DNA of 64,000 nucleotides from Patiriisocius marinistellae (GTDB lineage Bacteria > Bacteroidota > Bacteroidia > Flavobacteriales > Flavobacteriaceae). Of this stretch, positions 484 through 53,051 are shown piece after piece (position 1 is the stretch's first letter; every line of letters begins with the position of its first letter). Both the position numbers and the translations under genes were made by a program. Under the pieces are notes generated by a model. It ran no database searches and had not been told where the DNA came from. It saw only the letters and a list, made by a program, of their open reading frames with translations. Location of the stretch: NCBI RefSeq assembly GCF_009014635.1, contig NZ_BKCF01000001.1, positions 806,001 to 870,000 on the forward strand. Direction: 5' to 3'.

Positions 484-611
484 ACTTTGAAATTGAGTGG
501 CATTAAGTTTTCTTCGGAAATTTTAATGGATTACAATCATTTTGTTGTTATACATTTCGGCTTAAAAACAAAGACTATTTGAATAGCTTAATTATTTAAA
601 ATTAATAGAAA

Positions 612-1310
612 TTAATTAAGAGTTGGTGTTTCTGCCATTCTAGCACTGAGTTTCTTTTTTCTTGAATACCCCAAAGGAACCTCAACGGAGTCCACTTGGA
701 CAAAATCTGTAGCCACTGCTACAACTTTTCTAAGGTTTATCCAGTAGGAACGATGACATTGAAAAAAATGTGCTTGATTTAAGGCTTCAGAAATACATTT
801 TAAGGTGTGTGGCACCAAGTATTCTTTTGCTGATGTAACTATATAACAATAGTTATCAAAAGCTTTTAAATATTGAATACTGGATTGATTGATGGTATAT
901 TTTTTTCCTTCAGTTTTAAAGCTGAGTTTCTCTTCGTCTTGGTTAATAGTATGCCAGGCTAGTGTTATATTACTTAAAAGTCCTGCCTCTGTAAATGGTT
1001 TAACTATATAACCTAATGGGTTTGTTTCTTTAACGCGGGATAATGTAACTGGATCTGTTTGAGAGGTTAAAAATAGATATGGAATCTGCTCATTACTTAA
1101 ATAATGAGCTATATCAACCCCATCTTTATTACTTTGTAGTTGAATATCTAATAAGACTAATGTGGGTTGTGTTTTAGAAATTTGGGCGACTGCCTCTTCA
1201 TATTCATCACTACTGCCAGCTATGGCTATATTATTTTTTTTCAAAGCCATTTTTAGGCTCATTACTATTAGCGGTTCATCCTCTACGATATAGACGTTTA
1301 GTTTGTTCAA
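612..1310 (-). CDS. LytTR-family two-component response regulator
   Basis: Residues about 4-120 form a receiver domain: acidic pocket EDE at 10-12, phospho-acceptor Asp55 in LLDIQL, Thr in FLTSQ and Lys in YIVKPF. Residues about 130-225 form a LytTR DNA-binding domain with the core QCHRSYWINLRKV. At 232 residues it has the usual length of a LytR/AlgR regulator. The start codon is TTG: the next in-frame ATG would remove the first receiver strand, and an in-frame stop lies just upstream. It lies 96 bp after the sensor kinase gene on the same strand, and that gap carries a tandem operator-like repeat, so autoregulation is plausible. The signal sensed is unknown. Confidence 0.92.
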   Translation of the reverse strand: MNKLNVYIVEDEPLIVMSLKMALKKNNIAIAGSSDEYEEAVAQISKTQPTLVLLDIQLQSNKDGVDIAHYLSNEQIPYLFLTSQTDPVTLSRVKETNPLGYIVKPFTEAGLLSNITLAWHTINQDEEKLSFKTEGKKYTINQSSIQYLKAFDNYCYIVTSAKEYLVPHTLKCISEALNQAHFFQCHRSYWINLRKVVAVATDFVQVDSVEVPLGYSRKKKLSARMAETPTLN

Positions 1311-1369
1311 GAAGTTTTTTGATTGTCAGTTACATACAATCTACAAATAACAAATGGACTTTTATCCTT

Positions 1370-1400
1370 TTTTTAGTGAACGCATACTTTTTTTAGTGAA
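1370..1400. promoter_or_regulatory. Tandem direct repeat, LytTR operator-like (pair B)
   Basis: TTTTTAGTGAA at 1370-1380 is repeated at 1390-1400 with a 20-bp period. Each copy extends leftward into a longer T run. It sits about 60-90 bp upstream of the TTG start of the LytTR response regulator and just after the kinase stop codon, the position expected for an activator or autoregulatory site. Confidence 0.6.
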
Positions 1401-1406
1401 TAAATT

Positions 1407-3335: not shown

Positions 3336-3708
3336 TGGAAGTAGTTGACAGTTAGTGTTGTGAATTTACTAAATTCTAATTAAACATAATTGCTAAATAA
3401 TTGTTGTAGCTAATTTAAAGCAAAATGATGCTTCATCTATCTGCAAAAAAAGTCAAAAATGGAAAAGTCATCACAGGTGTGATGACTTTTCGCCCCAAAT
3501 TTGATTAATACCTTAAGTATCAACCTACTTATGTATAACAAAGCTAATTAAAAATAAGATACTCACTTGTAAGATTTTTCCTGTGTTAAAAAAACAGGTG
3601 TAACTACGTAGGAATGTTCTAGTTATGTGCTTTTTTAAAAGGTATTTCGGAATATAAAAAATATACATATCATAACTATTATCTATTCTAGATTGAATTG
3701 TAATATCT
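3336..3708. other. Divergent intergenic region
   Basis: This 373-bp stretch separates the minus-strand kinase from the plus-strand phosphoesterase. No credible gene is present. It holds a perfect 12-bp inverted repeat at 3463-3490 and a weak 5-bp one at 3580-3598. The octamer ACAGGTGT is found in the loop/stem of the first and just after the second. Confidence 0.6.
3463..3490. promoter_or_regulatory. Perfect 12-bp inverted repeat with 4-nt loop
   Basis: AAAAGTCATCAC and GTGATGACTTTT are exact complements around the loop AGGT. The T run is only four long and no gene ends here, since both neighbours start outward. It could be a terminator for an unseen transcript or a binding site. The sequence does not decide between these. 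Confidence 0.45.
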
Positions 3709-4959
3709 TTGATAAAAACCTTATTTTATATGATTCGTTGGGTAATATTTATTGCAATTTATATTCTTATAGATATTTATGCATTCCAAGCCGTCAAGAC
3801 ACTTACTCGAAATTCTATAATTCACTGGCTCTATATTCTGAGCTCGCTAGTGGTGTTAATATTATTGATTATTCAACTCAATAAATTAGGAGGCAGTAGG
3901 ATGATGTCTCCTGGAGGGATGTATTACTTTGGACTATTTCTGGCTTTTTTTGTGCCAAAAATGCTCATTATAATTTTTATGTTTGGTGAAGATATTATAC
4001 GCTTATTTGTTGGATTATTTTCAAAAATAGGAGGTGGAAATGAAACTTTTTATTTGCCCTCGCGTCGCAAATTTATAAGTACTATTGCTCTTGGAATTGC
4101 AGCAATTCCATTCGCTGGTCTTCTCTATGGGATGGTAAAAGGTAAATACAATTACAAGGTTTTAAAATATGCTATTGAGTTTGATGACTTGCCTGAAGAG
4201 TTTCACGGCTATACGCTCACGCAAATAAGTGATATTCATAGTGGTAGTTTTGATAATATTAATAAAGTAGAATATGCCGTAAGCTTAGTAAATGAACAAG
4301 AAAGCGATGTTATTTTATTTACAGGAGATTTAGTTAATAATGTAGCTGATGAAATGGAACCCTATACTCATATCTTCGGAAATTTAAAAGCTAGAGATGG
4401 CGTGTTTTCAGTATTAGGTAATCATGATTATGGTGACTATGTACAATGGAAAAGTAAAACAGAAAAAATCCGAAATTTAGATAAATTAAAAGCATTGCAA
4501 CGAAATATGGGTTGGGATTTGTTATTAAATGAACACCGAACAATTACCCGTAACGGACAGTCTATTAAATTATTAGGTATTGAAAATTGGGGGTCTGGAG
4601 GTTTTAAAAAAGCGGGTGATCTTGTTAAGACATGTGAAGGTTGTAACGTTTCAGACTTTAAAATTTTAATGAGTCATGATCCTTCTCATTGGCAGGAACA
4701 AGTAAAACAAAATAATAAAAATATACAACTTACTCTAAGTGGTCATACACATGGAATGCAATTTGGTATTGATATTCCTGGCTGGTTTAAATGGAGCCCC
4801 GTAAAATATAGGTATGAAAACTGGGCTGGGCTTTATGAGGAGTTTGGACGCTATATTCATGTCAACCGTGGTTTTGGATATCTTGGATACCCTGGAAGAG
4901 TAGGAATGTGGCCTGAGGTGACAGTTATTACATTAAAAAAGAAAGGGAAAATAGTCTAA
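3709..4959 (+). CDS. Membrane-anchored calcineurin-like metallophosphoesterase
   Basis: The N-terminal 140 residues hold about four hydrophobic helices. The catalytic domain follows with the family motifs in order: DIHSG near residue 175, GDLVNN, GNHDYGDY, SHDPSHW and SGHTHGMQ. These are the metal ligands of the YkuE/YaeI group, some members of which hydrolyse UDP-diacylglucosamine or other phosphoesters; the substrate here is unknown. RRKFIS just before the third or fourth helix looks like a weak twin-arginine motif but is internal. The start is uncertain: TTG at 3709 gives 416 residues and ATG at 3730 gives 409. The next gene begins 62 bp downstream behind its own TAnnTTTG element. Confidence 0.88.
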   Translation: MIKTLFYMIRWVIFIAIYILIDIYAFQAVKTLTRNSIIHWLYILSSLVVLILLIIQLNKLGGSRMMSPGGMYYFGLFLAFFVPKMLIIIFMFGEDIIRLFVGLFSKIGGGNETFYLPSRRKFISTIALGIAAIPFAGLLYGMVKGKYNYKVLKYAIEFDDLPEEFHGYTLTQISDIHSGSFDNINKVEYAVSLVNEQESDVILFTGDLVNNVADEMEPYTHIFGNLKARDGVFSVLGNHDYGDYVQWKSKTEKIRNLDKLKALQRNMGWDLLLNEHRTITRNGQSIKLLGIENWGSGGFKKAGDLVKTCEGCNVSDFKILMSHDPSHWQEQVKQNNKNIQLTLSGHTHGMQFGIDIPGWFKWSPVKYRYENWAGLYEEFGRYIHVNRGFGYLGYPGRVGMWPEVTVITLKKKGKIV

Positions 4960-6907: not shown

Positions 6908-7570
6908 TTATAATTTTGAAAACCTATAGTTATTTTCAACTATAAAACTTAAAACCTTCGGTAAAGCATAGCGAAGGTTTTTTTCTGCCTTTAAGCTATC
7001 ATGGAAAACTATAATACTTCCGTTTGAGATGTTTTTTAATACGTTTTCAAGACATTTTTCTTCGGAAATGTTAGCATCATAATCCATACTCAATACATTC
7101 CACATAATTATTTTATATCCTTTCTCTCTAATTTTTTTTGCTTGCCGAGAAGTCATTTTACCATACGGCGGACGGTAGAGATTGCAGATTGTTGTTTTCT
7201 GATAATTATTTTCGTTTAGTTTAATTGTTCTTGTAAATGTATTTTCAAATAACTCAACGTCCTTTATATAATTTTTAAAATTCGTTTTCCACCCGTTTAA
7301 ATGATGTTGGGTATGATTACCAACGGAATGTCCATTGTTTAATATTTCAGCAAAAATTGAAGGATGCTTATTTACATTATCGCCTATACAAAAAAATGTA
7401 GCTTTTGCATTGAACTTATAAAGAGTTTCTAATACCCAGGGAGTTATTATTGGTATTGGGCCGTCGTCAAAGGTGAGGTATATGGTTTTTTCATTATTTG
7501 GTCTTGACCATTCACGTGTAGAGAATAGTCGTTGAATGAGTTTTGGTGGACTTACCAATAATGAATTCAT
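6908..7570 (-). CDS. Polysaccharide deacetylase (NodB homology domain)
   Basis: The NodB domain is complete. TFDDGP supplies the catalytic Asp and metal-binding Asp, HSVGNHTQHH the two metal His, YRPPYGK motif 3, and IIVFHDS near the end the catalytic His strand. At 220 residues it is little more than the catalytic domain. No signal peptide is obvious, though the N-terminus is somewhat hydrophobic. The family removes N- or O-acetyl groups from cell-wall or exopolysaccharide sugars. It follows the GT117 gene by 90 bp on the same strand and may be co-transcribed. Confidence 0.85.
   Translation of the reverse strand: MNSLLVSPPKLIQRLFSTREWSRPNNEKTIYLTFDDGPIPIITPWVLETLYKFNAKATFFCIGDNVNKHPSIFAEILNNGHSVGNHTQHHLNGWKTNFKNYIKDVELFENTFTRTIKLNENNYQKTTICNLYRPPYGKMTSRQAKKIREKGYKIIMWNVLSMDYDANISEEKCLENVLKNISNGSIIVFHDSLKAEKNLRYALPKVLSFIVENNYRFSKL
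6951..6984 (+). terminator. Terminator of the surface protein, inside the convergent gene
   Basis: AAAACCTTCG (6951-6960) and CGAAGGTTTT (6972-6981) form a perfect 10-bp stem with an 11-nt loop, and the T run continues to 6984. It follows the stop at 6906 but lies within the last codons of the minus-strand deacetylase, so one sequence serves as coding region and terminator. Confidence 0.7.
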
Positions 7571-16874: not shown

Positions 16875-18095
16875 ATGCATAGAGTTGTAATAACAGGAAT
16901 GGGAATTTATTCTTGCATTGGTAAAAACAAACAAGAAGTAAAGGAGTCATTGTATAATGGGTCTTCAGGTATTATTTATGATGAAAAGCGCAAAGATTTT
17001 GGATTTCGCTCATGTTTCACAGGACATGTTGAAGAGCCCAATTTAAAAAAAGAATTGACTAGAAGACAGCGCACTAGCATGGGTGAAGAAGCAATGTACA
17101 GCTATGTCTCAACTGTTGAAGCTCTTGACCAAGCTGGAGTTGATCAGGCATATCTTGAAGCTAATGAAGTGGGTATTCTCTTCGGAAATGATAGTACGGC
17201 AAAATCCGTTATTGATTCAATTGATGTTATTAGAGATAAAAAAGACACAACATTAGTTGGATCTGGTGCTATTTTTAAAGCAATGAATTCTACAGTGACA
17301 ATGAACTTGTCAACTATATTTAAATTGACAGGAGTTAATTTTACCATCAGCGCAGCTTGCGCTAGTGGGTCGCATGCCATTGGAGTAGGTTACCAAATGA
17401 TAAAAAGTGGCATGCAAGAAATGATTATTTGTGGAGGTGCACAAGAAATCAATATGCTTGCTGTTGCAAGTTTTGATGGATTAGGTGTCTTTGCAACAGA
17501 AAAAAATAACGCTGCAAAAGCATCAAAACCTTTTGACAAAGACAGAAATGGGCTGATACCCAGTGGTGGTGCAGCTACATTAATATTAGAAAGTTATGAG
17601 TCTGCTATAAAACGTGGAGCAACTATCCTTGGCGAAATTGTAGGCTACGGCTTTTCGTCTAATGGTGATCATATTTCTACCCCTAATGTTGAGGGTCCAT
17701 CAAGAGCAATGCGAAAAGCACTTGATCAGTCTGGATTAAACACGAGTGTTGTTGATTATGTAAATGCACATGCAACTTCAACTCCAGTAGGAGATGCAAA
17801 TGAAGCTAAAGCTATTTTTGAGGTTTTTGGAGAAAATGGGCCCTATGTAAGCTCAACAAAATCAATGACGGGGCACGAATGTTGGATGGCTGGAGCTAGT
17901 GAAGTGATTTATAGTATGTTGATGATGGAACACGGTTTTATTGCCCCTAACATAAATTTAGAACATCCAGATGAAGACTCAGCAAAGTTAAATTTGGTCA
18001 AGAAAACGTTAGATAAAAAAATAGATGTATTTTTGTCGAATTCCTTTGGTTTTGGAGGAACAAATTCAGCATTAATAATAAAAAAATTGCCCTAA
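16875..18095 (+). CDS. Beta-ketoacyl-ACP synthase (FabF-like)
   Basis: The full catalytic triad of an elongating ketosynthase is present: Cys162 in SAACASGSH, His in NAHATSTPVGD, and His in TKSMTGHECWMAG with the preceding Lys. 406 residues is standard. It starts one base after fabG and is followed ten bases later by an acyl carrier protein, so reductase, synthase and carrier form a unit. It may elongate the aryl polyene or provide an acyl chain for the resorcinol. Which one cannot be read from the sequence. Confidence 0.9.
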   Translation: MHRVVITGMGIYSCIGKNKQEVKESLYNGSSGIIYDEKRKDFGFRSCFTGHVEEPNLKKELTRRQRTSMGEEAMYSYVSTVEALDQAGVDQAYLEANEVGILFGNDSTAKSVIDSIDVIRDKKDTTLVGSGAIFKAMNSTVTMNLSTIFKLTGVNFTISAACASGSHAIGVGYQMIKSGMQEMIICGGAQEINMLAVASFDGLGVFATEKNNAAKASKPFDKDRNGLIPSGGAATLILESYESAIKRGATILGEIVGYGFSSNGDHISTPNVEGPSRAMRKALDQSGLNTSVVDYVNAHATSTPVGDANEAKAIFEVFGENGPYVSSTKSMTGHECWMAGASEVIYSMLMMEHGFIAPNINLEHPDEDSAKLNLVKKTLDKKIDVFLSNSFGFGGTNSALIIKKLP

Positions 18096-19263: not shown

Positions 19264-20186
19264 AAGAAGTTTTAGTTGTTTATTATTCTCAAACAGGGCA
19301 GCAACAAGATATTCTCAAGAATATAATGCAACCTTTTAATGGAACAGCTACAAATATTACCTATCATGAAATTAAGCCAATAAAGGACTATCCTTTTCCA
19401 TGGCCAAAATTAGATTTTTTTGATGTCTTTCCAGAATCCTTTTTACAAATCCCAACTGAATTAGAGGCCATTCCAGTTTCAGTTCTTAATAAAAAATACG
19501 ATTTAATTATTCTTGGTTATACCGTCTGGTATTTAACACCTTCAATTCCAATAAACTCCTTCCTAAAATCTAATGAGGGAAAAAAATTGCTTAAGGATAC
19601 ACCTGTTGTCACTGTAATTGGAGCACGTAATATGTGGATTATGGCGCAAGAAAAAATGAAGCATTTATTAGTAAACTGTGGCGCCAGACTGGTAGGAAAT
19701 ATTGCTTTGGTGGATCGAAATATTAACCATATTAGTCTTATCACAATTCAACATTGGATGTTAGATGGAAAAAAAGACCGCAAATGGGGTGTTTTTCCAA
19801 AGCCTGGTGTTTCAGAAAAAGATATTTCCGAAGCATCAAAATTTGGACACACTATTCAAGAAGCTTTAATGTCTAATCAATATGATAACCTTCAGGATAA
19901 TCTTCTTAAAAAAGATGCAGTAACAGTAATTCCTTCTTTAATTGCGACAGATAAAAGAGGGAATGTTGTTTTTTCAAAATGGGCAAATATGCTTATTAAA
20001 AAAGGAGGCCCTAATAGCCCTAAAAGGCGTAAAATTCTACCCTACTTTAATTATTATATGATATTTGCGATATGGGTTATAGCTCCTATTGTTTTTATTG
20101 TATTTTTACTCACTTACTTGCCTCTGTATGGTAGGATTAAAAAGCAGAAGCAATATTATGCTTCAGTGCAATTAAAGCAAGATTAA
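19260..20186 (+). CDS. darA: Dialkylresorcinol biosynthesis protein DarA
   Basis: The first 180 residues form a flavodoxin-like alpha/beta fold starting EVLVVYYSQTGQQQDI, with a phosphate-loop-like SQTGQ. A membrane helix lies near 265-295 (MIFAIWVIAPIVFIVFLLT). This matches the proteins named DarA in flexirubin and dialkylresorcinol clusters. DarA acts with DarB to condense, cyclise and aromatise two acyl precursors into the 2,5-dialkylresorcinol; the chemical share of each is a matter of published work, not of this sequence. The gene shares single-base overlaps with darB (stop 20184-20186, start 20186). Confidence 0.88.
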   Translation: MKEVLVVYYSQTGQQQDILKNIMQPFNGTATNITYHEIKPIKDYPFPWPKLDFFDVFPESFLQIPTELEAIPVSVLNKKYDLIILGYTVWYLTPSIPINSFLKSNEGKKLLKDTPVVTVIGARNMWIMAQEKMKHLLVNCGARLVGNIALVDRNINHISLITIQHWMLDGKKDRKWGVFPKPGVSEKDISEASKFGHTIQEALMSNQYDNLQDNLLKKDAVTVIPSLIATDKRGNVVFSKWANMLIKKGGPNSPKRRKILPYFNYYMIFAIWVIAPIVFIVFLLTYLPLYGRIKKQKQYYASVQLKQD

Positions 20187-32245: not shown

Positions 32246-32867
32246 GCTTATTATTATCTTATTACTAGGTTGTTTTTCCACACAAGTTATGGCACAAGAA
32301 CGTGTGATGACAGCTTCGGAAATTTCTGCTTTTAAAACTGCCGTTATTGAAACCTCCCGTGCATCAAAAACCATTAAAAGTGACTTTATCCAATACAAGC
32401 ATCTTGATTTTTTAGATAACGATATTGAAACCATTGGAAAACTACAATTCAAAGCCCCAGGATTCGTAAAATGGGAATATACAAAACCGTACGTCTACAG
32501 TGTGATTTTTAGAGAAGATAAATTACTTATTAATGACGGAGGAACTAAAAATGCTATCGATATTGGAAGTAGTAAAATGTTTAAAAAGCTTAACGATTTA
32601 ATCGTAAAAAGCGTTAAAGGCGATATGTTTGATGATAACGATTTTACTGTAACTTACTTTATAACCGACAAAGCAAATAAAGCAGTTTTTGTTCCAAAGG
32701 ATAAAAAACTTACAGAGTACATAGCATCTTTTGAATTACTTTTTGATAAAAAAGAAGCTTCGGTTACTGAAGTTAAAATGATAGAACCGTCACAGGATTA
32801 CACGCAAATTATATTTAAAAACCGACTTGTAAATACAACCATTAACGATGCGGTATTTACTCAGTAG
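32238..32867 (+). CDS. LolA-like outer-membrane lipoprotein carrier
   Basis: Signal peptide at residues 1-20 (ending QVMAQ), then about 190 residues with the LolA pattern: KTIKSDFIQYKHLDFLDNDIETIGKLQFKAPGFVKWEY, typical of the first strands of the hydrophobic half-barrel. Aryl-polyene clusters also carry LolA-like genes. It probably carries the lipophilic pigment or a lipoprotein across the periplasm. It overlaps the upstream gene by 8 bp and the downstream lipoprotein gene by 20 bp. Confidence 0.85.
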   Translation: MYKLIIILLLGCFSTQVMAQERVMTASEISAFKTAVIETSRASKTIKSDFIQYKHLDFLDNDIETIGKLQFKAPGFVKWEYTKPYVYSVIFREDKLLINDGGTKNAIDIGSSKMFKKLNDLIVKSVKGDMFDDNDFTVTYFITDKANKAVFVPKDKKLTEYIASFELLFDKKEASVTEVKMIEPSQDYTQIIFKNRLVNTTINDAVFTQ

Positions 32868-35627: not shown

Positions 35628-38600
35628 ATGGATAATTGGTGGTTCAAAACTTTTACCCTTATCAAAAAAAATAAACTACCTGCAATTTTCATTGCTGCAG
35701 GTTGTATTTTCTTACTCATTTTTCTCGCTTCGAAAATCAAATTTGAAGAAGATATTACCAAGATACTCCCAGCAACCGAAGAGACCCGCAACATTCAAAA
35801 GATTTTAAAGAGTGTTAATTTTACAGATAAAATCATAGTTAATATTTCTCGCAAAGCGGAAGGAAACACCAGCGACCTTACCCAATATGCCACTTCGTTT
35901 TTAGACAGTCTTAATGCCAATCTTGGCGACTTTGTAAAGGACATTCAAGGACAAGTAAATGACCAAGGCATAGACACTACCTTAGATTTTGTTTATAATA
36001 ACCTACCCCAATTTTTAAACAACGAAGATTATAAAAATCTAGAAAGTAGGTTAATGCCAGATAGTATCCAAGCAATCATCCAGTCTAACTACCGAACGCT
36101 CGTATCTCCTTCCGGCATAATAGCACGAAAAGTAATTTTAAAGGACCCGTTAGGATTGTCATATACAGGTTTAAAAAAATTACAAAAGCTTGGCGTGGGA
36201 GATGATTTTAAATTGAAAAATGGATTTGTCATAAGTAAAGACGAACAAAATTTATTGCTATTTATAACACCCCAATATCTGGCAGATGATGCAGCTAAGA
36301 ATGAAGAGTTTTCAGACAAATTGTATGAATTACAAAATGATCTCAACGCTTCTTTTTATGATGAAGCCTCCAGTGAATACTTTGGCGCAGCACTAATTGC
36401 AGTGGCAAACGCCAAACAAATAAAGCATGATATTCAATTTACCATTGGGATTGCGATAACTATTTTAATGGTCATTTTTATTCTCTTTTATAAAAAATTA
36501 ATCATCCCGTTTATTCTTTTTACACCCACTATTTTAGGAGCTCTTTTAGCTGTGTCACTATTGTATTTAATTCGTACAGAAATATCTGCAATTTCGTTGG
36601 GAATTGGCTCCGTTTTATTGGGGGTGACATTAGATTATTCATTACATATTTTGACTCATATTCGTAACAATGAAGGTGTAGAAAGTCTATATAAAGAAAT
36701 TGCAAAGCCTATTTTAATAAGCTCATTGACAACGGCACTTGCATTTTTGTGTCTCTTGTTATTAGACTCACAAGCCTTGCAGGATTTGGGTATTTTCGCA
36801 GCGGTAAGTGTAATAGGAGCAGCAATTTTTGCTTTATTATTTATTCCACAAGTATATAAAGTGAAAACTAAAGCCATCGCTAAAAAAACGAGTATTGATA
36901 ATATTGCCAATTATAAATTTCACCATAACAAATGGCTTATTACTGGAATTACGGGTTTGCTTATAATGAGCGCTTTTACCTACAATAAAGTCACCTTCAA
37001 CAATGACCTCGCCACGCTTAATTATGAGCCTTCGGAAATTTTAAAAGCCAAAAGGAATCTAGATGCATTAACAAATCTAGAGTCAAAATCGGTTTATGCT
37101 GTAGCCTATGGAAATACTACCGAAGCAGCTTTAAAAGCAAATGACAGTCTATTTAATGGACTGAAAAATCTAGAGTCCCAACATAAAATAATGAGCTTTA
37201 GCAACCTTGGGGCATTGGTACAATCAAAAGAAAGCCAAGCGAAAAACATCAAAAAATGGAACCTCTTTTGGACGTCTGAGAAAATATCAAACTTGAAACA
37301 AAATATGATTTCCAGCGGAAACGAATTAGGTTTTAAGCCGTCGTCCTTTGATGGGTTTTATGGTTTGCTGCAAAGAGATTTTAAAACGCTTTCGATAGCT
37401 GAATATGGGGCGCTTTCGAGTATTACAATTGAAGATTTCATTTCTGAGGAACTTGATATTACTACAGTTACTTCGGTTGTGAAATTAGAGGACGAATATG
37501 CCTATGAAGTGAAAGCTGCATTTGCTGATAGCGACAGTATATTAATAATTGACCGCAAACAAATGAATGAATCATTGTTGGGGTCATTGCGAGATGATTT
37601 CAACAAACTCATCTGGTATTCAATGGCAGTTGTGCTATTGTTGTTGCTACTCTATTATAGGAGTTTTTCTCTCACAATTGTTACAATGCTGCCAGTATTT
37701 TTAACATGGGGGATCACGGTAGGGGTAATGGGAATTCTAGGAATAGAATTTAATATATTTAATATCATTATTTCTACATTCATTTTTGGTTTAGGTATTG
37801 ATTATTCTATTTTTATAACAAATGGATTGTTGCAAGAATTAAAGACGGGGCAGCCCACATTGGGAACGCATAAAACGTCTATTTTACTTTCGGTATTAAC
37901 CACTATTTTGGGTATTGGTGTTTTAATTTTTGCTAAGCATCCTGCGTTATATACTATATCAATCGTTTCCATTATTGGAATATTTTCTGCAATGTTGCTT
38001 GCATTTACCTTACAGCCATTATTATTTGTGTTGTTTATAGGAAGTAAAAGAAAACGCCCTATTACGTTACGTTATTTAGTACATTCGGTTGGATCTTTTT
38101 TATATTTTGGAATTGGCGGCTTGCTTTTTTCTTTAGTGAGTCCATTACTGAAAATTTTGCCCGTTTCGAAGAAAAAAAAGATGGGTGTTTTTCATAATGG
38201 CATTTCAAAGTTGATGAAAAGTGTATTATACACAAACCCATTTGTAAAGAAAAATGTCTTGAACACACACAATGAAGATTTCAAAAAACCCGCATTTTTA
38301 ATTGCAAATCACACGTCGTTCTTAGACATCCTAGCCGTGGGAATGTTGACGCCTAAGCTTATTTTTCTGGTAAATGACTGGGTGTATAATTCGCCTGTAT
38401 TTGGAAGAGTAGTTAAGCTTGCTGGTTTTTATCCTGTGTCAAAAGGCATAGATGAAGCTGTGGCTCATTTACAAACAAAAGTAGCACAAGGCTATTCGTT
38501 AATCGCTTTTCCAGAGGGTACCCGTTCAACAACGAATAAAGTAAAACGATTTCACAAAGGCTCATTTTTCTTAGCTGAAAAATTGGGGTTAGATATTATT

Positions 38601-39314
38601 CCAGTTATTATTCACGGAAACAGTGAAGTACTTCCCAAGAATAGTTTTATCATTAAAGATGGAAGCATAACTGTGAAAATCTTAAAAAGAATCCCAAAAG
38701 ATGATACAGAATTTGGTCCTACGTACAGCGAAAAAGCAAAGCAAATAGGAGCTCATTTTAGAGATGAATTTCAATTGTTGAGAGATGACGTTGAGAACGC
38801 AAATTACTTTCACAAACTTATTTTAGAAGAGTATCGCTATAAGGGTAGCTCGTTGCATAGTAAAGTGAAAATGGACTTGAGGGCAAATGGTTTGAGCTAC
38901 AAAACTATTGCAGCTACTCTACCTAAAAATAGTACGATTACACATATTTCAAATTCAAGTGGGCAATTAGACTTCTTATTAGCTTTAGATAGTGCCAACC
39001 GAAAAATTACAACTAGGATTGAAAATTCTAAGACGCTTAAAATTTTAAGGCAAAGTTATTTGACACTTTCAGATTTAAAATTAAATTTTGTTATAAAGAC
39101 TTCGGAAATTTTAAACTTAGATAATGATGTGCTGATAATTAATTCAGATGGTTTTTCGGAATCTGAATTTTTAGCATTTCAAAAACAAACATTACAATGG
39201 GTAGTACTCATAGATTCGCCGCAGCAAATTTCCGAAGCATTTCTTATTTTGGAAGGATTTGAAATCTTGCGTACAGCGACAAATCTTAGTATATTTAAAA
39301 AAATTGAGCAATAG
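35628..39314 (+). CDS. MMPL/RND transporter fused to a PlsC acyltransferase and a degenerate C-terminal domain
   Basis: 1228 residues. Two MMPL halves (about 15-425 and 430-820) each have a periplasmic loop and a bundle of helices, with the paired motifs GVTLDYSLHI and GLGIDYSIFI that are typical of RND-type lipid exporters. Residues about 870-1060 are a PlsC-like 1-acyltransferase: NHTSFLD near 894 and FPEGTRS near 960. The last 160 residues resemble a worn Rossmann or methyltransferase fold without a clear SAM motif. Fusing acyltransferase and transporter suggests acylation coupled to export of the pigment. The next gene starts one base after the stop. Confidence 0.88.
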   Translation: MDNWWFKTFTLIKKNKLPAIFIAAGCIFLLIFLASKIKFEEDITKILPATEETRNIQKILKSVNFTDKIIVNISRKAEGNTSDLTQYATSFLDSLNANLGDFVKDIQGQVNDQGIDTTLDFVYNNLPQFLNNEDYKNLESRLMPDSIQAIIQSNYRTLVSPSGIIARKVILKDPLGLSYTGLKKLQKLGVGDDFKLKNGFVISKDEQNLLLFITPQYLADDAAKNEEFSDKLYELQNDLNASFYDEASSEYFGAALIAVANAKQIKHDIQFTIGIAITILMVIFILFYKKLIIPFILFTPTILGALLAVSLLYLIRTEISAISLGIGSVLLGVTLDYSLHILTHIRNNEGVESLYKEIAKPILISSLTTALAFLCLLLLDSQALQDLGIFAAVSVIGAAIFALLFIPQVYKVKTKAIAKKTSIDNIANYKFHHNKWLITGITGLLIMSAFTYNKVTFNNDLATLNYEPSEILKAKRNLDALTNLESKSVYAVAYGNTTEAALKANDSLFNGLKNLESQHKIMSFSNLGALVQSKESQAKNIKKWNLFWTSEKISNLKQNMISSGNELGFKPSSFDGFYGLLQRDFKTLSIAEYGALSSITIEDFISEELDITTVTSVVKLEDEYAYEVKAAFADSDSILIIDRKQMNESLLGSLRDDFNKLIWYSMAVVLLLLLLYYRSFSLTIVTMLPVFLTWGITVGVMGILGIEFNIFNIIISTFIFGLGIDYSIFITNGLLQELKTGQPTLGTHKTSILLSVLTTILGIGVLIFAKHPALYTISIVSIIGIFSAMLLAFTLQPLLFVLFIGSKRKRPITLRYLVHSVGSFLYFGIGGLLFSLVSPLLKILPVSKKKKMGVFHNGISKLMKSVLYTNPFVKKNVLNTHNEDFKKPAFLIANHTSFLDILAVGMLTPKLIFLVNDWVYNSPVFGRVVKLAGFYPVSKGIDEAVAHLQTKVAQGYSLIAFPEGTRSTTNKVKRFHKGSFFLAEKLGLDIIPVIIHGNSEVLPKNSFIIKDGSITVKILKRIPKDDTEFGPTYSEKAKQIGAHFRDEFQLLRDDVENANYFHKLILEEYRYKGSSLHSKVKMDLRANGLSYKTIAATLPKNSTITHISNSSGQLDFLLALDSANRKITTRIENSKTLKILRQSYLTLSDLKLNFVIKTSEILNLDNDVLIINSDGFSESEFLAFQKQTLQWVVLIDSPQQISEAFLILEGFEILRTATNLSIFKKIEQ

Positions 39315-41752: not shown

Positions 41753-43421
41753 TAGAGTCGCATTATTTCTCTTCGGAAATTTGATGTTGTTACTTATTTC
41801 TTCCTGCGGTGTTCAAAAATCGTTAAAGGACATTCCAGATGTAAGCAACTATAATAATGACATACCCGAAAGAGTAAAAATTAACGACACTACGTACCAC
41901 GCTGGAAATAATTTTCTAACAAGAAATCAGTTTGGCCTTTGGGAACTCTACGTTGAAGGCGATCCTTATCAAAGAGGCCTCGTTATGGGAAGTCTCACAA
42001 GAGAACTTATTGAAACCCAAGAACGTGTGTTTTTAACCAAAGTAAACGATTTAGTGCCTAACAAAACATGGCAAGGCTTTTTACGCAGTTTTTTAAAATG
42101 GTATAACCGAAAAATTTATAAACATGTCCAACCCGAATTTAAAGCCGAAATCTACGGAGTGTCAAAATACGGATCAGATGAGTTTAATTCGCTAGCGACA
42201 CCTTATTTGCGATCTTTATATTTACACAGTGCACATGATATAGGGCACGCGTTGCAAGATTTAGCATTAGTAGGTTGTTCTTCATTTGCCGCTTGGAATG
42301 AAAAAACAGAAGATGGAAGCTTACTAATTGCACGTAACTTTGACTTTTATGCAGGTGATGAATTTGCAGAACAAAAAATAATTGCCTTCATTAATCCAGA
42401 TAGTGGCAATCCCTACGTAAGTGTTACTTGGGGTGGTTTTACAGGAGTGACTAGCGGCATGAATACTGCAGGACTTACAATAACTATTAACGCGTCAAAG
42501 TCTAAAATTCCGTTGATAGCGAAGACTCCTATTTCTATTTTGAGCAGGGAAATTTTGCAATATGCGACAACTATCGAAGAGGCAATTGCCATTGCTAAAA
42601 AGCGAGAAGTTTTTGTTAGCGAAACCATTTTGATAGGGAGTGCTAAAGATGGCAAGGCGGCATTGATTGAGGTGTCTCCTAAAAACTTTGGTATCTACGA
42701 AGTTGAAAATAGCAATCAATTAATTTGCTCCAATCACTTTCAAAGTGATACTTATGAAGACGACAAACGCAACTCAAAAAGCATTGAGGAGAGTCACAGC
42801 AAATACAGGTTTGACCGCATGCAGGAAATTTTGAAAGAAGATGAGGGAAAAATGACTGTTAAAGATGCCGTAGCATTATTGCGTAATCGTAAAGGACTGG
42901 GTGATAAAAAAATAGGCTTCGGAAATGAGAAGGCATTAAACCAAATGCTTGCACATCATGGGATTGTTTTTAAGCCTGAAAGTTTAGAAGTTTGGATTTC
43001 TGCAAACCCATATCAAATGGGCGAATTTGTAGCGTATGATTTAAATAAAGTGTTTAATAATAGAGAAAATAATCCAGCGGAAACAACGCTTTCTATTTTA
43101 GAAAACGTTATTCCTGCAGATCCTTTTTTGAAAACCGAATCTTATAAAAACTATGAGGAATATCGCATTATTGAAAGAACAATAGAAAACGCTATTAATA
43201 ATGAGGTGGAAGTTTCCGAAGAAAGTCTGAATAATTTGCAATCGAAGAACCCAGAATACTGGAAAGCGCATTACCTTGCAGGGAGGTATTATTATGAGTA
43301 TAAAAGGTTTGATGAAGCTTTAAAGGCATTTAAAATTTCAAAAACAAAAGAGATTACAACGTTGCCTGATGCTGAAAACTTAGAGAGGTATATAAAAAAA
43401 GCATTAAGGAAGTTAAAATAA
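41745..43421 (+). CDS. C45-type Ntn-hydrolase/acyltransferase lipoprotein
   Basis: The signal peptide ends in a lipobox LLLISSC (lipid Cys about residue 21). In the middle, LALVGCSSFAAWNEKTEDGSLLIARNFDFY has the C45 autoproteolysis site: Cys178 would become the N-terminal nucleophile, as in isopenicillin-N and acyl-CoA:6-aminopenicillanate acyltransferases. The last 90 residues look like a TPR (HYLAGRYYYEYKRFDEALKAF). It would sit on the outer face of the inner membrane or on the outer membrane. It could transfer or hydrolyse an acyl group of the exported pigment. Confidence 0.82.
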   Translation: MHNRVALFLFGNLMLLLISSCGVQKSLKDIPDVSNYNNDIPERVKINDTTYHAGNNFLTRNQFGLWELYVEGDPYQRGLVMGSLTRELIETQERVFLTKVNDLVPNKTWQGFLRSFLKWYNRKIYKHVQPEFKAEIYGVSKYGSDEFNSLATPYLRSLYLHSAHDIGHALQDLALVGCSSFAAWNEKTEDGSLLIARNFDFYAGDEFAEQKIIAFINPDSGNPYVSVTWGGFTGVTSGMNTAGLTITINASKSKIPLIAKTPISILSREILQYATTIEEAIAIAKKREVFVSETILIGSAKDGKAALIEVSPKNFGIYEVENSNQLICSNHFQSDTYEDDKRNSKSIEESHSKYRFDRMQEILKEDEGKMTVKDAVALLRNRKGLGDKKIGFGNEKALNQMLAHHGIVFKPESLEVWISANPYQMGEFVAYDLNKVFNNRENNPAETTLSILENVIPADPFLKTESYKNYEEYRIIERTIENAINNEVEVSEESLNNLQSKNPEYWKAHYLAGRYYYEYKRFDEALKAFKISKTKEITTLPDAENLERYIKKALRKLK

Positions 43422-43502: not shown

Positions 43503-44789
43503 ATGACCCCAATAATAGAATCAGCATCACCACAAGAAATTAAAGCACTTCAAGAAACCGAAATGCAAAAGATGCTAGCGTACATTGGGGAGCATTCTAC
43601 ATATTATAAAAAACTCTTTAAGAGTAATAAGATTAATATTTCCGAAGTAAAAACGCTTCAAGATTTACAGCAATTACCATTAACGACGAAGGATCAATTG
43701 CAACAAAATAATGATGATTTTATTTGTGTTCCAAAAGGGAAAATAATTGATTATGTCACTACTAGTGGTACATTGGGAGAACCAGTAACGTTTGCACTTT
43801 CAGAGAAAGATTTACAACGATTAGCTTATAATGAAGCAATTTCTTTTGCCTGTGCTGAGGTAAAACAAGATGATGTTATGCAACTAATGACTACAATGGA
43901 TCGTAGGTTTATGGCGGGTTTGGCTTATTTTCTAGGCGCACGCAAGTTGGGTGCAGGGATTATAAGAGTGGGTAGTGGGATTCCTGAATTGCAATGGGAT
44001 TCTATTTTAAAATTTAACCCTACATATCTTATTTGTGTACCTTCTTTTTTACTTAAAATGATAGAATTTGCCACAAACAACGGGATTGATTTGGCTAAGA
44101 GTAGCGTAAAAGGGGCGATTTGTATTGGAGAGCCTATTCGTAATGAAAACTTTGGCTACAACACTTTAGCTTCAAAAATAAAAAAGGGATGGAATATTAA
44201 ATTATATTCCACGTATGCTAGTACTGAGATGAGTACAGCATTTAATGAATGTGGGGAAGGAAAAGGAGGACATCATCACCCCGAACTTATTATAGCTGAA
44301 ATTTTAAACGATAAAGACAAGCAGGTAAAAGATGGAGAAGTTGGTGAATTAGTTATAACAACACTAGGAGTTGAGGCAATGCCACTACTGCGTTTTAAAA
44401 CAGGCGATATGGTACGAGCACACACAAGCCCTTGTAATTGTGGTAGAAATACGATGCGTCTTGGTCCTGTAGTGGGTCGTAAAAAACAAATGATAAAATA
44501 TAAAGGAACTACATTGTATCCTCCAGCAATGTATAATGTACTCAATGATTTTGAAGCTATTGACTGTTTTTTAATTGAAATCTCTCACAATGAGTTTGAG
44601 ACGGATGAAATACTCATAAAAATAGCAACATCAAATGAGAGTGAAGAATTTTTACAAGAAGTTAAAGATCATTTTAGGGCAAAGTTGCGGGTTACGCCAA
44701 CGGTTGAATTTCACGATAAAAAAACTTTAAATTTATTGCGTTTACCTAAGATGAGTAGGAAACCAATTGACTTAATCGACTTAAGGTAA
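43503..44789 (+). CDS. PaaK-like aryl-CoA/ACP ligase
   Basis: 428 residues. TTSGTLGEPVTF is the ATP/AMP-binding loop, YSTYASTEM the adenylate motif, and LRFKTGDMVRA carries the conserved Asp. A Cys pair in SPCNCGRNTMRLG is also typical of phenylacetate-CoA ligases. In the flexirubin pathway an enzyme is needed to activate 4-coumarate from the ammonia-lyase, and this is the only adenylate-forming enzyme in the cluster. It may load CoA or the acyl carrier directly. It is the last gene of the cluster, with an 81-bp gap upstream. Confidence 0.87.
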   Translation: MTPIIESASPQEIKALQETEMQKMLAYIGEHSTYYKKLFKSNKINISEVKTLQDLQQLPLTTKDQLQQNNDDFICVPKGKIIDYVTTSGTLGEPVTFALSEKDLQRLAYNEAISFACAEVKQDDVMQLMTTMDRRFMAGLAYFLGARKLGAGIIRVGSGIPELQWDSILKFNPTYLICVPSFLLKMIEFATNNGIDLAKSSVKGAICIGEPIRNENFGYNTLASKIKKGWNIKLYSTYASTEMSTAFNECGEGKGGHHHPELIIAEILNDKDKQVKDGEVGELVITTLGVEAMPLLRFKTGDMVRAHTSPCNCGRNTMRLGPVVGRKKQMIKYKGTTLYPPAMYNVLNDFEAIDCFLIEISHNEFETDEILIKIATSNESEEFLQEVKDHFRAKLRVTPTVEFHDKKTLNLLRLPKMSRKPIDLIDLR

Positions 44790-46489: not shown

Positions 46490-47119
46490 TTACCATGCCA
46501 TTTTAGGAACGCTCTCCTCAAGTAAGAGCCAAGCGTAACCTGTTTCGCTATTCTCGTCGATATTAAACACAGAATAATAGCGTAAAAGTTCATTGGGTTT
46601 TTCAGGATTTACTCTTATAATTTGTAATGTTTCAGGCTTGTTACTTTTGTGAATTGCAAAACCATTCATTACGGGTTTCCATTGATTATTTCGTAAAACG
46701 TACAGAAAATATTTATTAAAATTTTCATCCTTTAATTTAGCGGTTAACAAAAGTAAATCACGGTCAAATCCCTCAAGCACAAGAGGAGAAATTGTGCCTC
46801 CATAGGTTTTGGGGACTAATAACTTCGGAAATCTATTATCCTGAAACGAAATGTGAGTAACACCATTATTAGTGTCTATCTTATTTATCCTAGCATAAAA
46901 AGGGACAAGATCGCCATTATAATTTCCAATTACTGCATTATCAGGGATGGAAGGCTTGGTTATCTTGGATGGTTCAATAGTGGGTTTTGGTTTTGGAGAG
47001 GTTTTTTGTGTGGTCTTTGGACCAATAATATTTTTATTTTTTTTAGTTGGGGTTCCACAACTAATTAAAATAGTGCAGGTAAGAGTAAAAACTAAAATAG
47101 TTGTAACTGATAGTTTCAT
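46490..47119 (-). CDS. Lipoprotein paralogous to the downstream repeat protein
   Basis: 209 residues. The signal peptide ends in TCTILISC with the lipobox Cys near residue 21, followed by a Lys/Pro-rich linker (about 25-60). The C-terminal domain (about 95-209, FPKLLVPKTYGGTI to VPKMAW) is shared with the protein at 44819-46321; both contain WKPVMNGFAIHKSNK and the ending KMAW. The ancestral domain was therefore duplicated here and one copy gained the repeat stalk. Domain function unknown. Confidence 0.78.
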   Translation of the reverse strand: MKLSVTTILVFTLTCTILISCGTPTKKNKNIIGPKTTQKTSPKPKPTIEPSKITKPSIPDNAVIGNYNGDLVPFYARINKIDTNNGVTHISFQDNRFPKLLVPKTYGGTISPLVLEGFDRDLLLLTAKLKDENFNKYFLYVLRNNQWKPVMNGFAIHKSNKPETLQIIRVNPEKPNELLRYYSVFNIDENSETGYAWLLLEESVPKMAW

Positions 47120-48214: not shown

Positions 48215-48679
48215 ATGATAGAAAAGGTAACTACATTATTGAACGAAGCGCTTTCTGATAATCCGTCATTGTTTTTGATTGATTTAGAGATTATTAGCGA
48301 TAATAGGATTGTTGTAACGCTTGATGGAGATGAAGGAGTGAGAGTTGAAGATTGTATTGCTGTGAGTCGTGCAATAGAACACAACCTTGACAGAGAAGAG
48401 GAAGATTTTTCATTGGAGGTCATGAGTGCTGGGGTTTCCGAGCCCTTGACAATGCCACGACAGTATAAGAAAAATTTAGACAGAACATTAAAAATCAAAA
48501 CAGTGAAAGGTGAAACAATAGAGGGTCAATTGACTAACGTTTCCGAAGAAAAAATTACGCTAGAGTGGAAGGCACGTGAGCCAAAACCTGTAGGTAAAGG
48601 AAAGGTGACTGTGAAGAAAAAAGCAGAATTGCCTTACAACGAGATTGTAGAAGCAAAAGTGATGGTAACATTTAATTAA
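48215..48679 (+). CDS. rimP: Ribosome maturation factor RimP
   Basis: 154 residues with the two RimP parts: an N-terminal alpha/beta domain (VTLDGDEGVRVEDCIAVSRAIEHNLD, then DFSLEVMSAGVSEPL, near the usual SPGxxRPL) and a C-terminal SH3-like barrel (KTVKGETIEGQLTNVSEEKITLEW). It helps 30S assembly. It is first in the classic order rimP-nusA-infB; nusA starts 7 bp later. The ATG at 48215 is preferred to the TTG one codon earlier. Confidence 0.95.
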   Translation: MIEKVTTLLNEALSDNPSLFLIDLEIISDNRIVVTLDGDEGVRVEDCIAVSRAIEHNLDREEEDFSLEVMSAGVSEPLTMPRQYKKNLDRTLKIKTVKGETIEGQLTNVSEEKITLEWKAREPKPVGKGKVTVKKKAELPYNEIVEAKVMVTFN

Positions 48680-48686
48680 AAATGAT

Positions 48687-49919: not shown

Positions 49920-49981
49920 GGACTAAAATGTTATTTTTGAACGTAGTTTTCACGATATTATAGAAATAGGAAAGCATATTT

Positions 49982-52801
49982 ATGGCTGAAGTAAAATCAA
50001 TAAGACTTAACAAAGTACTCAAAGAGTTTAATATCTCTATTGACCGTGCTGTGGAATTTTTGGGTTCCAAGGGGCACGAAATCGATCGTAAGCCCACTAC
50101 TAAAATTAGTAGTGCGGAATACGAAGTGCTTGCAGATGAATTTGCAAAGGACAAAGAGAAAAAAGTTGAGTCAAAAGAAGTTGGCGAAGAGAAACGAAAA
50201 GAGAAGGAAGAACTTCGTCTCGAGCGTGAGCGTGAACTTGAGGAAAAAGAAAATCAAAGAGCGGAGGCTTCTAAGGTGATTAAAGCTGAGGCTAATCTTG
50301 CAGGTTTAAAACAAGTGCGCAAAATAGAGCTTGATGCTAAAGGCAATCCTATTCAAAAAGAACAGAACCCTGCTCCTGTTGAAGCGCCCAAAGAGGCTCC
50401 TCAAAAAGAAGCTCCTCAAAAATTAGAAGCTAAAAAACCTGAGCCGCCAAAAGTTGAAAAGGTTGTCGAAGCAACTAAAAAAGAAACGCCAAAAGCCACA
50501 ACACCAAAAGTTGAAAAGCCTGTTGTGAAAACAGAAACTCCTAAGGTTGAGGTGAAACCAGTGGCGCCTACGGTTGAAAAGAAAGTTGAAGAACCAGTAG
50601 AAAAGAGTTCTCCAGATACTGCTGAAGCAGCAGATGGTGAAGGAACAGGTATAGTTGAGACAAAATATAAAAAGCTAAACGGTCCTAACTTTACAGGTCA
50701 AAAAATTGATTTAACTCAATTTAAAAAACCAGAAAAGAAAAAACCAGCTTCATCTGGAGAGAAAAAAGGACGTCGTCGTCGTATCAGTAAAGATAATGGT
50801 AAATCTGGAGCTAATTCTGGAGGAGGAAATAGGAAAGATAATAGAGGAGGTTCACGCAGAGGTTCTCAAAGGTCTAATGTGCCCAAAGAAGAACCTACTG
50901 AGGCAGAAGTGCAAAAACAAGTACGTGAAACTTTAGAAAAACTTCAGGGTAAGTCTTCTAAAGGAAAAGGTGCTAAATATAGGAGAGAAAAACGTGATAC
51001 TCACCGTCAAAAAACGGAAGAAGAATTAGCAAAGCAAGAAATTGATAACAAATTGCTTAAAGTGACTGAATTTGTTACTGTAAGTGAGGTTGCTACCATG
51101 ATGGACTTGCCAGTAACAAAAATTATTTCTGCATGTATGTCATTGGGAATGATGGTTACAATGAACCAGCGTCTTGATGCAGAAACAATATCTATTGTTG
51201 CTGAAGAATTTGGTTACGAAGTAGAATTTGTAAATGCTGATATTGAAGAGTCAATTCAAGAAGTTGAAGATGCTCCAGAAGACTTAAAAGAAAGAGCGCC
51301 TATTGTTACTGTAATGGGTCACGTTGATCACGGTAAAACATCATTACTAGATTACATTCGTAAAGAAAATGTTATCGCCGGTGAAAGTGGTGGTATTACA
51401 CAACACATTGGTGCATATGGAGTACAATTAGAAAATGGACAAAAAATAGCATTTCTCGATACGCCAGGTCACGAAGCCTTTACAGCAATGCGTGCACGTG
51501 GTGCTCAAGTAACAGATTTAGCAATTATTGTAGTTGCGGCAGATGATGACATTATGCCACAAACAAAAGAAGCTATTTCTCACGCACAAGCAGCGGGAGT
51601 ACCTATCGTATTTGCTATAAATAAAATTGACAGACCTAGTGCAAATCCTGAAAAGATTAAAGAAGGATTAGCTCAAATGAATCTTTTAGTAGAGGATTGG
51701 GGTGGAAAAATTCAATCACACGATATCTCTGCTAAGACAGGTGAGGGTGTAAAAGAATTATTGGAGAAAGTTTTATTAGAAGCCGAATTGTTAGAGCTTA
51801 AAGCAAATCCAGATAAAGCCGCAAATGGAACAGTAGTAGAAGCCTTCTTGGATAAAGGTCGTGGATATGTATCTACAATTCTTGTACAAGGCGGTACTTT
51901 AAAAGTTGGTGATTATGTTTTAGCTGGACAACACAGTGGTAAGGTTAAAGCAATGCAGGATGAACGTGGTAAAAAAGTAAAAACTGCTGGACCTTCAATA
52001 CCGGTATCTATTTTAGGATTAGACGGGGCACCACAAGCTGGTGACAAGTTTAGTGTTTTTGAAGATGAACGAGAAGCTAAGGATATAGCAAGTCGTCGTA
52101 CACAGTTACAACGTGAGCAGTCTGTAAGAACACAACGTCATATTACACTTGATGAAATTGGACGTCGTATTGCGCTTGGTGACTTTAAAGAATTAAACAT
52201 TATTCTCAAAGGAGATGTTGATGGTTCTGTAGAGGCATTGACAGATAGTTTCCAAAAACTATCTACTGAGGAAATTCAAGTAAACATTATTCATAAAGCA
52301 GTAGGGCCTATTACTGAGAGTGATGTGTTATTGGCTTCTGCGTCAGATGCGATTATAATTGGATTTAACGTTCGCCCAATGGGTAATGCTCGTCAAATTG
52401 CAGATAAAGAAGAAATCGACATCCGTATGTATTCAATTATATATGCGGCAATCAATGACTTGAAAGATGCAATGGAAGGAATGTTATCTCCAGAAATGAA
52501 AGAGGAGATTACGGGTACTGCAGAAATTAGAGAAACATTTAAAATTTCTAAAGTAGGTACTATTGCAGGTTGTATGGTATTAACTGGAAAAATTATAAGA
52601 AATGCAGGAATACGTTTAATTCGTGAGGGTGTAGTTGTTTACACAGGCGAGTTAGAAAGCCTAAAGCGTTTTAAAGATGATGCAAAAGAAGTTGCAAAAG
52701 GATACGATTGTGGTATGCAAATTAAAAACTACAACGATATCTATGAAGGCGACATCATTGAATCATTCCATGAAGTAGCTGTAAAGAAAAAGTTGAAATA
52801 A
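49982..52801 (+). CDS. infB: Translation initiation factor IF-2
   Basis: 939 residues. The N-terminal domain ([23 protein letters not shown]) is followed by a long low-complexity linker rich in Lys, Glu, Pro and Ala (about 60-330). The GTPase core begins near 440 with G1 [10 protein letters not shown]3 DTPGHEAF and G4 NKID. Domains II to IV follow, including [13 protein letters not shown] and [18 protein letters not shown] at the fMet-tRNA-binding end. Length and layout are normal for the phylum. It is the last gene of the operon, with a terminator at 52822. Confidence 0.98.
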
Positions 52802-52821
52802 ACTTTTTAACACTATAAATT

Positions 52822-52856
52822 AAAAATCCCGTTTCTTTTAGAGACGGGATTTTTTG
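52822..52856 (+). terminator. Terminator of the rimP-nusA-infB operon
   Basis: AAAAATCCCGT and ACGGGATTTTT pair perfectly; further pairs including one G-U extend the stem towards the loop, and T follows. It begins about 20 bp after the infB stop. Confidence 0.9.
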
Positions 52857-53011
52857 GTTTAAATATTACCTTGAAAAGGCTTTACTTCTGAAATGTATTC
52901 AATTTTTAAATGACTTAAACAAAAAAACATTTTTAGCTAATAATCTTAATAGCCAAATTTTTTCTCTAACGAAATGAATGTTTTGATTTTAAAAAACAAG
53001 TTGTAAACAAA

Positions 53012-53051
53012 AAAAGTAACTTCGAAAACTAATATTTCCGAAGCTACTTTT
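53012..53051 (-). terminator. Terminator of the SPOR lipoprotein gene
   Basis: On the minus strand AAAAGTAGCTTCG and CGAAGTTACTTTT form a 13-bp stem with one G-U pair and lead into further T. It lies 31 bp past the stop of the minus-strand gene. One stem arm contains part of the dispersed CTTCGGAAAT word. Confidence 0.75.

Follow-up and report, generated by a model that had tools for sequence, protein, structure and literature searches.

The 64,000-nt window described here (positions 806,001 to 870,000 of contig NZ_BKCF01000001.1, Patiriisocius marinistellae) carries 19 exact copies of the 10-base word CTTCGGAAAT, 13 on the forward and six on the reverse strand. The word behaves as a signal at the DNA level, not the protein level, and, judging from sequence, it is probably the central element of a ∼40-bp DNA-uptake sequence found in some marine Flavobacteriaceae, namely, the genus of the window and at least 15 other genera in the family survey. 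We favor an uptake sequence because the core, flanking AT tracts, strand balance, enrichment between genes and in hairpins, turnover between species, and patchy spread at the genus level occur in combination. We know of no other class of genomic word (Chi, FtsK-orienting polar sequences or KOPS, HIP1, and matS were considered) that shows this whole signature combined.

Over-representation of the word

Throughout, the genome under study is G000 (3.34 Mb in 30 contigs) and the control is the reversed word, that is, the letters of CTTCGGAAAT read backwards. For the window, 100 dinucleotide shuffles give an expectation of 0.13 copies (no shuffle reached 19) and an order-2 Markov model gives 0.12, in agreement with the 0.1–0.2 estimated in an earlier sequence-only reading of this DNA, whose 19 copies on both strands were all recovered. 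That reading had proposed a k-mer count as a check. Genome-wide there are 833 copies (428 forward and 405 reverse; about one per 4 kb), compared with 16 of the reversed word (four forward and 12 reverse), which is ∼50-fold lower. In an 864-kb sample of the genome (the window together with 40 stretches, each 20 kb long), CTTCGGAAAT ranks first among all 10-mers, with 250 copies compared with 1.5 expected. The outcomes named at the outset as fatal to the idea (counts near the Markov expectation, an origin in one gene family, or codon bias) did not occur.

The core is sharp, in that single-base variants in the same sample are mostly near expectation. Exceptions occur at G5 (G5T 48 vs. 4.5 expected, G5A 17 vs. 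4.5), T3 (T3A 21 vs. 1.7, T3G 21 vs. 1.6), and T10 (T10C 21 vs. 0.7, T10A 19 vs. 2.1), and the smaller ones include A7C (9 vs. 0.8) and A7T (7 vs. 1.1).

The extended motif

CTTCGGAAAT forms the core of a motif of ∼40 bp with nonrandom flanks. The consensus is T-rich from −8 to 0 (T at −8, −5, and −2 to 0), followed by T12, A14, A23–25, and T28, with an A-tract region at 23–28. A core followed by AT tracts about one helical turn apart is also the arrangement of Haemophilus-type uptake signal sequences (USS). The flanks are strongest at intergenic copies (T12 0.90, A14 0.74, T28 0.65) and recur in four coding contexts with 19–49 sites each, where some elements are missing (T28 is 0.30 in one); the remaining two reading contexts hold just eight and three sites. 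Codon usage alone does not explain this pattern, and beyond the AT tracts the copies have no common flanks. Flanks of this kind also surround one-base variants of the word (e.g., G5T, T3G, and T10C), except that T12 is low for T3A and T10A; two control words lack the motif flanks. Among other words enriched in the G000 sample are forms of TTCTGAAAT (e.g., AATTTCAGAA, 105 vs. 11 expected) and AAGCCGAAAT (35 vs. 1.7 expected); in the flanks of the latter the downstream part of the motif is present and the upstream part absent.

When trained on G000, a profile of the flanks only distinguishes sites of the 9-mer CTTCGGAAA in other genomes from control words made of the same letters. The area under the receiver operating characteristic curve (AUC) is 0.91 in sister species of the genus, 0.76 (z 4.6) in G391, a closed genome of another genus, and 0.79 (z 4.7) across nine further genomes of other genera. 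Also in other genera, it is 0.70 for G022 (24 sites, z 2.0) and 0.74 for G017 (13 sites, z 2.4).

Genomic placement, hairpins, and strand symmetry

Of the 250 exact copies in the 864-kb sample, 92 are intergenic, compared with 9% intergenic DNA (fourfold enrichment, p 8e-33). The coding copies show no gene-strand bias (86 on the gene strand, 71 on the opposite strand, and one partially overlapping a gene), and they occur in all six reading contexts, encoding many peptides. The earlier claim of a DNA-level signal is borne out by these contexts, by the intergenic excess, and by the flanks that recur across contexts.

The number of copies in a 20-kb stretch roughly follows a Poisson distribution (43 stretches; mean 5.8, variance 5.9). 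Two local features that the sequence-only reading had pointed to, denser copies in a pigment cluster and a copy-free region (nothing after 53043), are close to what this Poisson scatter allows. The genes there that it had called alternative complex III (ACIII; window positions 53696–58168) include a multihaem cytochrome c (53696) and an Fe-S subunit (55112).

Close neighbors are in excess, with 37 gaps shorter than 300 bp compared with 20.3 ± 4.2 expected. Among pairs less than 100 bp apart, 17 of 20 are convergent inverted repeats, two are divergent, and one is tandem. Four examples chosen for folding form strong hairpins (z −4.8 to −7.3), including the window copy at 53034, for which a place in a terminator stem had been proposed and which folds at −20.1 kcal/mol (z −6.6). 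Many reading frames, an intergenic excess, and inverted pairs are together what an uptake sequence should show.

Replication bias was examined in the closed genome G391, because the window genome is in 30 contigs and not closed. The origin was set at dnaA (3.229 Mb), GC skew having given no clean origin, and 100 copies of CTTCGGAAA in 21 stretches were scored. The leading strand holds 47 of the 100, which does not differ from an even split (p 0.62) but does differ from 75% (p 2e-9), and in zones with mostly one-signed skew 30 of 53 are leading. The strands are thus used equally, as in an uptake sequence (428/405 in G000), without a replication skew (G391 only), and neither the orientation bias of Chi nor the origin-to-terminus strand skew of KOPS or SpoIIIE recognition sequences (SRS) is seen in G391.

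The copies in the window are given below; lines without further description are exact copies of CTTCGGAAAT. The open reading frames come from a mechanical call with a minimum length of 90 codons, and some sites listed as intergenic may therefore fall in small genes. The mixed contexts described earlier are found again: 10 copies are coding on the gene strand, seven are coding on the opposite strand, and two are intergenic.

512..521, forward: intergenic
4374..4383, forward: coding, gene strand, codon offset 2
7060..7069, forward: coding, opposite strand
17180..17189, forward: coding, gene strand, in a ketoacyl-synthase gene; exact in sister species G007
19824..19833, reverse: coding, opposite strand
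21421..21430, forward: coding, gene strand, codon offset 1
23447..23456, forward: coding, gene strand
25787..25796, forward: coding, gene strand
26275..26284, reverse: coding, opposite strand
26433..26442, reverse: coding, opposite strand, codon offset 2
28409..28418, forward: variant CTTCGGAAAC (T10C), 8-base core unchanged
28549..28558, reverse: partial copy, CTTCGGAA core then GC
32314..32323, forward: coding, gene strand; aligned place in G007 reads CTTCTGAAAT
37030..37039, forward: coding, gene strand
39100..39109, forward: coding, gene strand; convergent with the copy at 39228
39228..39237, reverse: coding, opposite strand
41771..41780, forward: coding, gene strand
42917..42926, forward: coding, gene strand; exact in G007
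43212..43221, reverse: variant CTTCGGAAAC (T10C)
43638..43647, reverse: coding, opposite strand
46823..46832, forward: coding, opposite strand
48539..48548, reverse: variant CTTCGGAAAC (T10C)
53034..53043, reverse: intergenic; makes up the 5′ arm of a hairpin that resembles a terminator and has a T run after it

Lineage spread and turnover

We counted a genome as a carrier if its copies of CTTCGGAAA number 200 or more and are no less than threefold those of the reversed control, with tallies made by eye from the tables; the family survey comprised genomes at least 90% complete and the phylum survey genomes at least 95% complete. In the Flavobacteriaceae, 32 of 394 genomes, from 16 genera, are carriers, the best being G274 (1,166 vs. 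93 reversed). None of the 264 genomes outside the family in the phylum sample reaches 200 copies (maximum 172). High ratios at low counts in other families (G485, 172 vs. 22; G494, 135 vs. 12; G645, 73 vs. 0) probably reflect composition.

The genus is represented by 11 genomes. Five of them are rich in CTTCGGAAAT (833, 605, 474, 345, and 239 copies, the last in G009, which is 59% complete), and the other six, all assemblies of 1.7–2.1 Mb, are poor (6–34 copies vs. 9–18 reversed). Among genomes with named loci, 15 of the 41 tested (from 80 loci fetched; see below) are carriers, including Ulvibacter sp. 3-376-3Z (817 vs. 58), Cochleicola gelatinilyticus, Aequorivita lipolytica, Altibacter sp., Psychroserpens luteolus, and Subsaximicrobium wynnwilliamsii. 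The carrier limits are failed by six named Winogradskyella, two Dokdonia, one Nonlabens, and one Gilvibacter genomes, and Mesonia has one low and one intermediate genome for CTTCGGAAA. When the carrier label is placed on a tree of the barrel protein described below, it requires seven changes, compared with a shuffled mean of 13.0 (none of 500 shuffles was as low). The carrier state is clustered yet repeatedly gained or lost, and such lineage-specific presence among related species is a property of uptake sequences.

Turnover is also evident at the level of single sites. Between the window and sister species G007, 14 copies are alignable, of which two are exact (17180 and 42917), one is off by one base, and 11 differ by at least three; conversely, two of four G007 copies in the aligned part are common to the window. 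Word-rich species bear copies largely at different places, with some in common, and largely differing sites are expected for a word that accumulates steadily.

Samples of 60–80 kb from G003, G004, G008, G010, G011, and G039 did not recover CTTCGGAAAT. The top 10-mer of the G004 sample is TTTCTGAAAT (eight vs. 0.4 expected), a variant form of CTTCGGAAAT that is perhaps a relic, and the few CTTCGGAAA sites of noncarriers, which also score with the flank profile (AUC 0.70 for 10 sites and 0.81 for eight), are perhaps relics as well. A de novo word search in pooled Winogradskyella, Psychroserpens, Dokdonia, Mesonia, and Gilvibacter loci gave nothing comparable that is convincing; this is a weak test, because all the loci come from one homologous region.

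A different word was seen in Nonlabens sp. 3-981 (L201) and in G020 (L100–L102), genomes without CTTCGGAAA. This is the perfect palindrome GCTTTCGCGAAAGC, whose 10-base core TTTCGCGAAA occurs 17 times in 81 kb (as 14-mers, 16 perfect, four with one mismatch, none with two, and one with three). It is evenly spaced (coefficient of variation of the gaps 0.30, vs. 0.80 ± 0.16 at random; fraction 0.0002), with 11 copies coding (in all three frames) and six between genes. The core also occurs 17 times in five Dokdonia loci (L180, L193, L197, L198, and L205; 98 kb) and four times in a metagenome-assembled genome (L183). The palindrome, which was not found in the open-licence literature, may be another dialect or a chromosome-organizing element.

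Candidate uptake machinery

ComEC is present in 15 of 16 genomes (the sole miss is the 59%-complete G009), and DUF5689 is likewise present in 15 of 16, with 14 over the cut-off. In the small assemblies of the genus (G001–G004, G008, and G010), comEC is kept in all six and DUF5689 in five. The DUF5689 gene of G000 adjoins that of a 952-aa barrel protein with a CarboxypepD-reg domain (PF13715), and the pair belongs to a conserved three-gene locus (L034:10784-16277) in which an Exo_endo_phos_3 nuclease gene is divergent from the barrel and DUF5689 lipoprotein genes. Named loci were collected via barrel homology, and 80 of 372 relatives were kept. Barrel and lipoprotein occur together in all 80, and the nuclease lies beside the barrel in 78; in the other two, the contig ends at the barrel gene. 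A lipobox-like N-terminal cysteine of the DUF5689 protein is invariant in 50 aligned proteins. A considerably longer form of the lipoprotein (658–731 aa) is encoded in some of the 80 loci. Among the matches listed, identity to the G000 proteins is 37–65% for the lipoprotein and 59–75% for the barrel, and from this lower range we conclude that the lipoprotein evolves faster.

The predicted structure of the barrel (mean pLDDT, a model-confidence score, 76) matches TonB-dependent transporters. That of the lipoprotein (mean pLDDT 87.5) contains a domain of ∼190 residues that resembles the cleaved-adhesin domains of gingipains and probably sits in the C-terminal half, which a solved DUF4955 protein matches by profile.

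On these grounds a mechanism can be sketched. Competent cells would bind free DNA at the outer membrane, at a site flanked by AT tracts and probably bent, and would import word-bearing DNA in preference to foreign DNA. On this view, the word would promote uptake and cells of the genus would be competent. The word would be read by the DUF5689 lipoprotein, presumably at the cell surface and paired with a barrel of the TonB-dependent-transporter fold; this reader is proposed because a search of nine genomes for the ATPases of type IV pili and type II secretion gave no match over the cut-off. ComEC would finish import. Imported homologous pieces with the word would then replace pieces without it, leading to genome-wide accumulation, as proposed for Haemophilus and Neisseria. 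More tentatively, and somewhat short of what we would call probable, this may be a third, independently evolved uptake sequence, in the Bacteroidota, read not by a pilus tip but by an outer-membrane importer in two parts, in which a rapidly evolving surface lipoprotein with DUF5689 and cleaved-adhesin-like domains sits on a TonB-type barrel, with a nuclease gene adjacent.

A second DUF5689-like protein with a type IX secretion system (T9SS) tail, found in G005, G006, G007, and G009 (weak in G009), was considered as a specificity factor and rejected: among the matches listed in 54 genomes, the best in G000 covers the C-terminal tail only, there are few full-length matches in other word-rich genera, and the protein is present in word-poor congeners.

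Alternative explanations and points against an uptake sequence

The sequence-only reading had left open uptake sequences, Chi-type signals, and FtsK-orienting sequences; of these, uptake is favored, and the lack of strand bias in G391 speaks, in that genome, against an FtsK-orienting role and against a Chi with strong skew. A Chi-type hotspot, at which the word would halt degradation of self DNA by a RecBCD- or AddAB-like enzyme and load RecA, shares the self-marking logic and would account for a short, sharp, strongly over-represented word. We nevertheless consider it unlikely, given the 47 of 100 leading copies (p 2e-9 against 75% leading), the six of 11 genomes of the genus that are poor in the word, and a 40-bp motif with spaced AT tracts and convergent hairpin pairs, neither of which is to our knowledge a feature of Chi. 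KOPS-type sequences are strongly strand-skewed; about one copy per 4 kb would suit a KOPS-like element, but the absence of skew in the closed genome makes this the least credible possibility, one we consider extremely improbable.

Binding of a nucleoid protein, or another structural role in organizing the chromosome unrelated to import, is in keeping with the AT-tract architecture and intergenic enrichment, and also with the evenly spaced, different palindrome at comparable density in Nonlabens. Quite unlikely in our view, it is opposed by rapid turnover between sister species, by the random spacing of the sites, and by their scarcity in close relatives, which must also organize their chromosomes. 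An origin as a by-product, whether of codon usage, of one protein family present many times, of terminators, or of mobile DNA, is very improbable: some copies do lie in hairpins, but 158 of 250 are in or overlap coding sequence, the reading contexts number six with many peptides, no flanks are common beyond the AT tracts, and the reversed word is ∼50-fold rarer.

It is important to note the observations that weigh against an uptake sequence or the machinery proposed for it. Site spacing is random and not even, and in G022 and G017, with samples of just 24 and 13 sites, the flanks cannot be seen when positions are taken one by one. Conservation of sites above background is weak when counted from G000: in other sampled pairs, five of 29 G000 copies are exact in the counterpart, compared with a background of ∼7% taken from all 10-column windows of the alignments (p 0.06), and from the relatives' side five of 12 are exact. 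The established uptake sequences depend on type IV pili, and these are apparently absent here: of nine genomes searched (seven word-rich and two others), none has a match over the cut-off to PF00437, the ATPase family of type IV pili and type II secretion, and six have weak sub-threshold matches. The plug region of the barrel is poorly modeled, and Pfam models for TonB receptors or plug domains do not match the protein at E 0.001. Noncarriers (Winogradskyella and the small assemblies of the genus) have the locus too. Carriage of the word is therefore not predicted by the locus, nor by any protein identified here, and DUF5689, barrel, and ComEC do not separate carriers from noncarriers. Orthology of the transformation genes of Riemerella (see below) to the locus is presumed from domain descriptions and pairing only. 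Competence is not demonstrated for the carrier genera in the literature covered, and in the available part of one study Flavobacterium johnsoniae was not competent where Riemerella columbina was (PMC7965970).

Novelty and significance

The uptake-sequence literature, as far as its accessible portion goes, concerns Pasteurellaceae and Neisseriaceae. The statement that no uptake sequence had been described in this phylum holds for the open-licence literature, mostly at abstract level, and open-licence papers containing the letter strings of the word include none related by title among the matches listed. If the uptake reading is correct, a convergent AT-tract-flanked signal in bacteria that seem to have no type IV pili would imply that sequence-selective import needs no pilin receptors, and a TonB-type transporter that recognizes self DNA would constitute a new mechanism. 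These marine flavobacteria would be predicted to be naturally competent, and sexual, and word-tagged DNA would be a practical handle for transforming genera that are hard to engineer. An independent system, with close carrier and noncarrier species as controls, would also bear on the puzzles of origin, drive, and receptor that surround USS and the DNA uptake sequences (DUS) of Neisseriaceae.

Comparison with known systems

The USS of Pasteurellaceae, with the core AAGTGCGGT, lie on both strands, are enriched between genes, and form lineage dialects; the DUS of Neisseriaceae occur as inverted pairs in terminators and form genus dialects. In Haemophilus influenzae there are 1,465 USS cores, with AT tracts and a predicted bend, and in Neisseria meningitidis 1,892 copies of a 10-bp DUS (both from the available part of PMC7811141). 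A core of ∼9–10 bp that is present many times in the genome and is bordered by AT tracts is common to the element described here and the Haemophilus USS (PMC7811141). It differs from Pasteurellaceae USS in that CTTCGGAAAT is unrelated to AAGTGCGGT, in a T-rich stretch upstream as well, and in belonging to a different phylum. Like the DUS, it is a 10-bp word with many copies; unlike the DUS, it has an unrelated core and spaced AT tracts, and no counterpart of the ComP pilin receptor was found. It is further set apart from both the Haemophilus and Neisseria systems by the lack, in the nine genomes searched, of a pilus or secretion ATPase over the cut-off.

A parallel for the machinery may be Riemerella, placed in the family Flavobacteriaceae in the papers cited here. 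Riemerella columbina prefers its own DNA (PMC7965970), and the k-mer table of that paper, as available, holds A+T-rich words only, none of them like CTTCGGAAAT. Riemerella tonB mutants are impaired in transformation, one of them without an iron defect (PMC8383284). In Riemerella anatipestifer, transformation is reported to need comEC, dprA, comF, recA, and two more genes (PMC8459023), and helix-hairpin-helix and DUF1343 proteins are among the further essential proteins. A DUF5689 gene is also reported to be essential there, as is its neighbor, which encodes an outer-membrane protein with a carboxypeptidase-regulatory domain (PMC8459023), and the locus described here has the same pairing of DUF5689 with a CarboxypepD-reg domain (PF13715 here, pfam13620 in PMC8459023).

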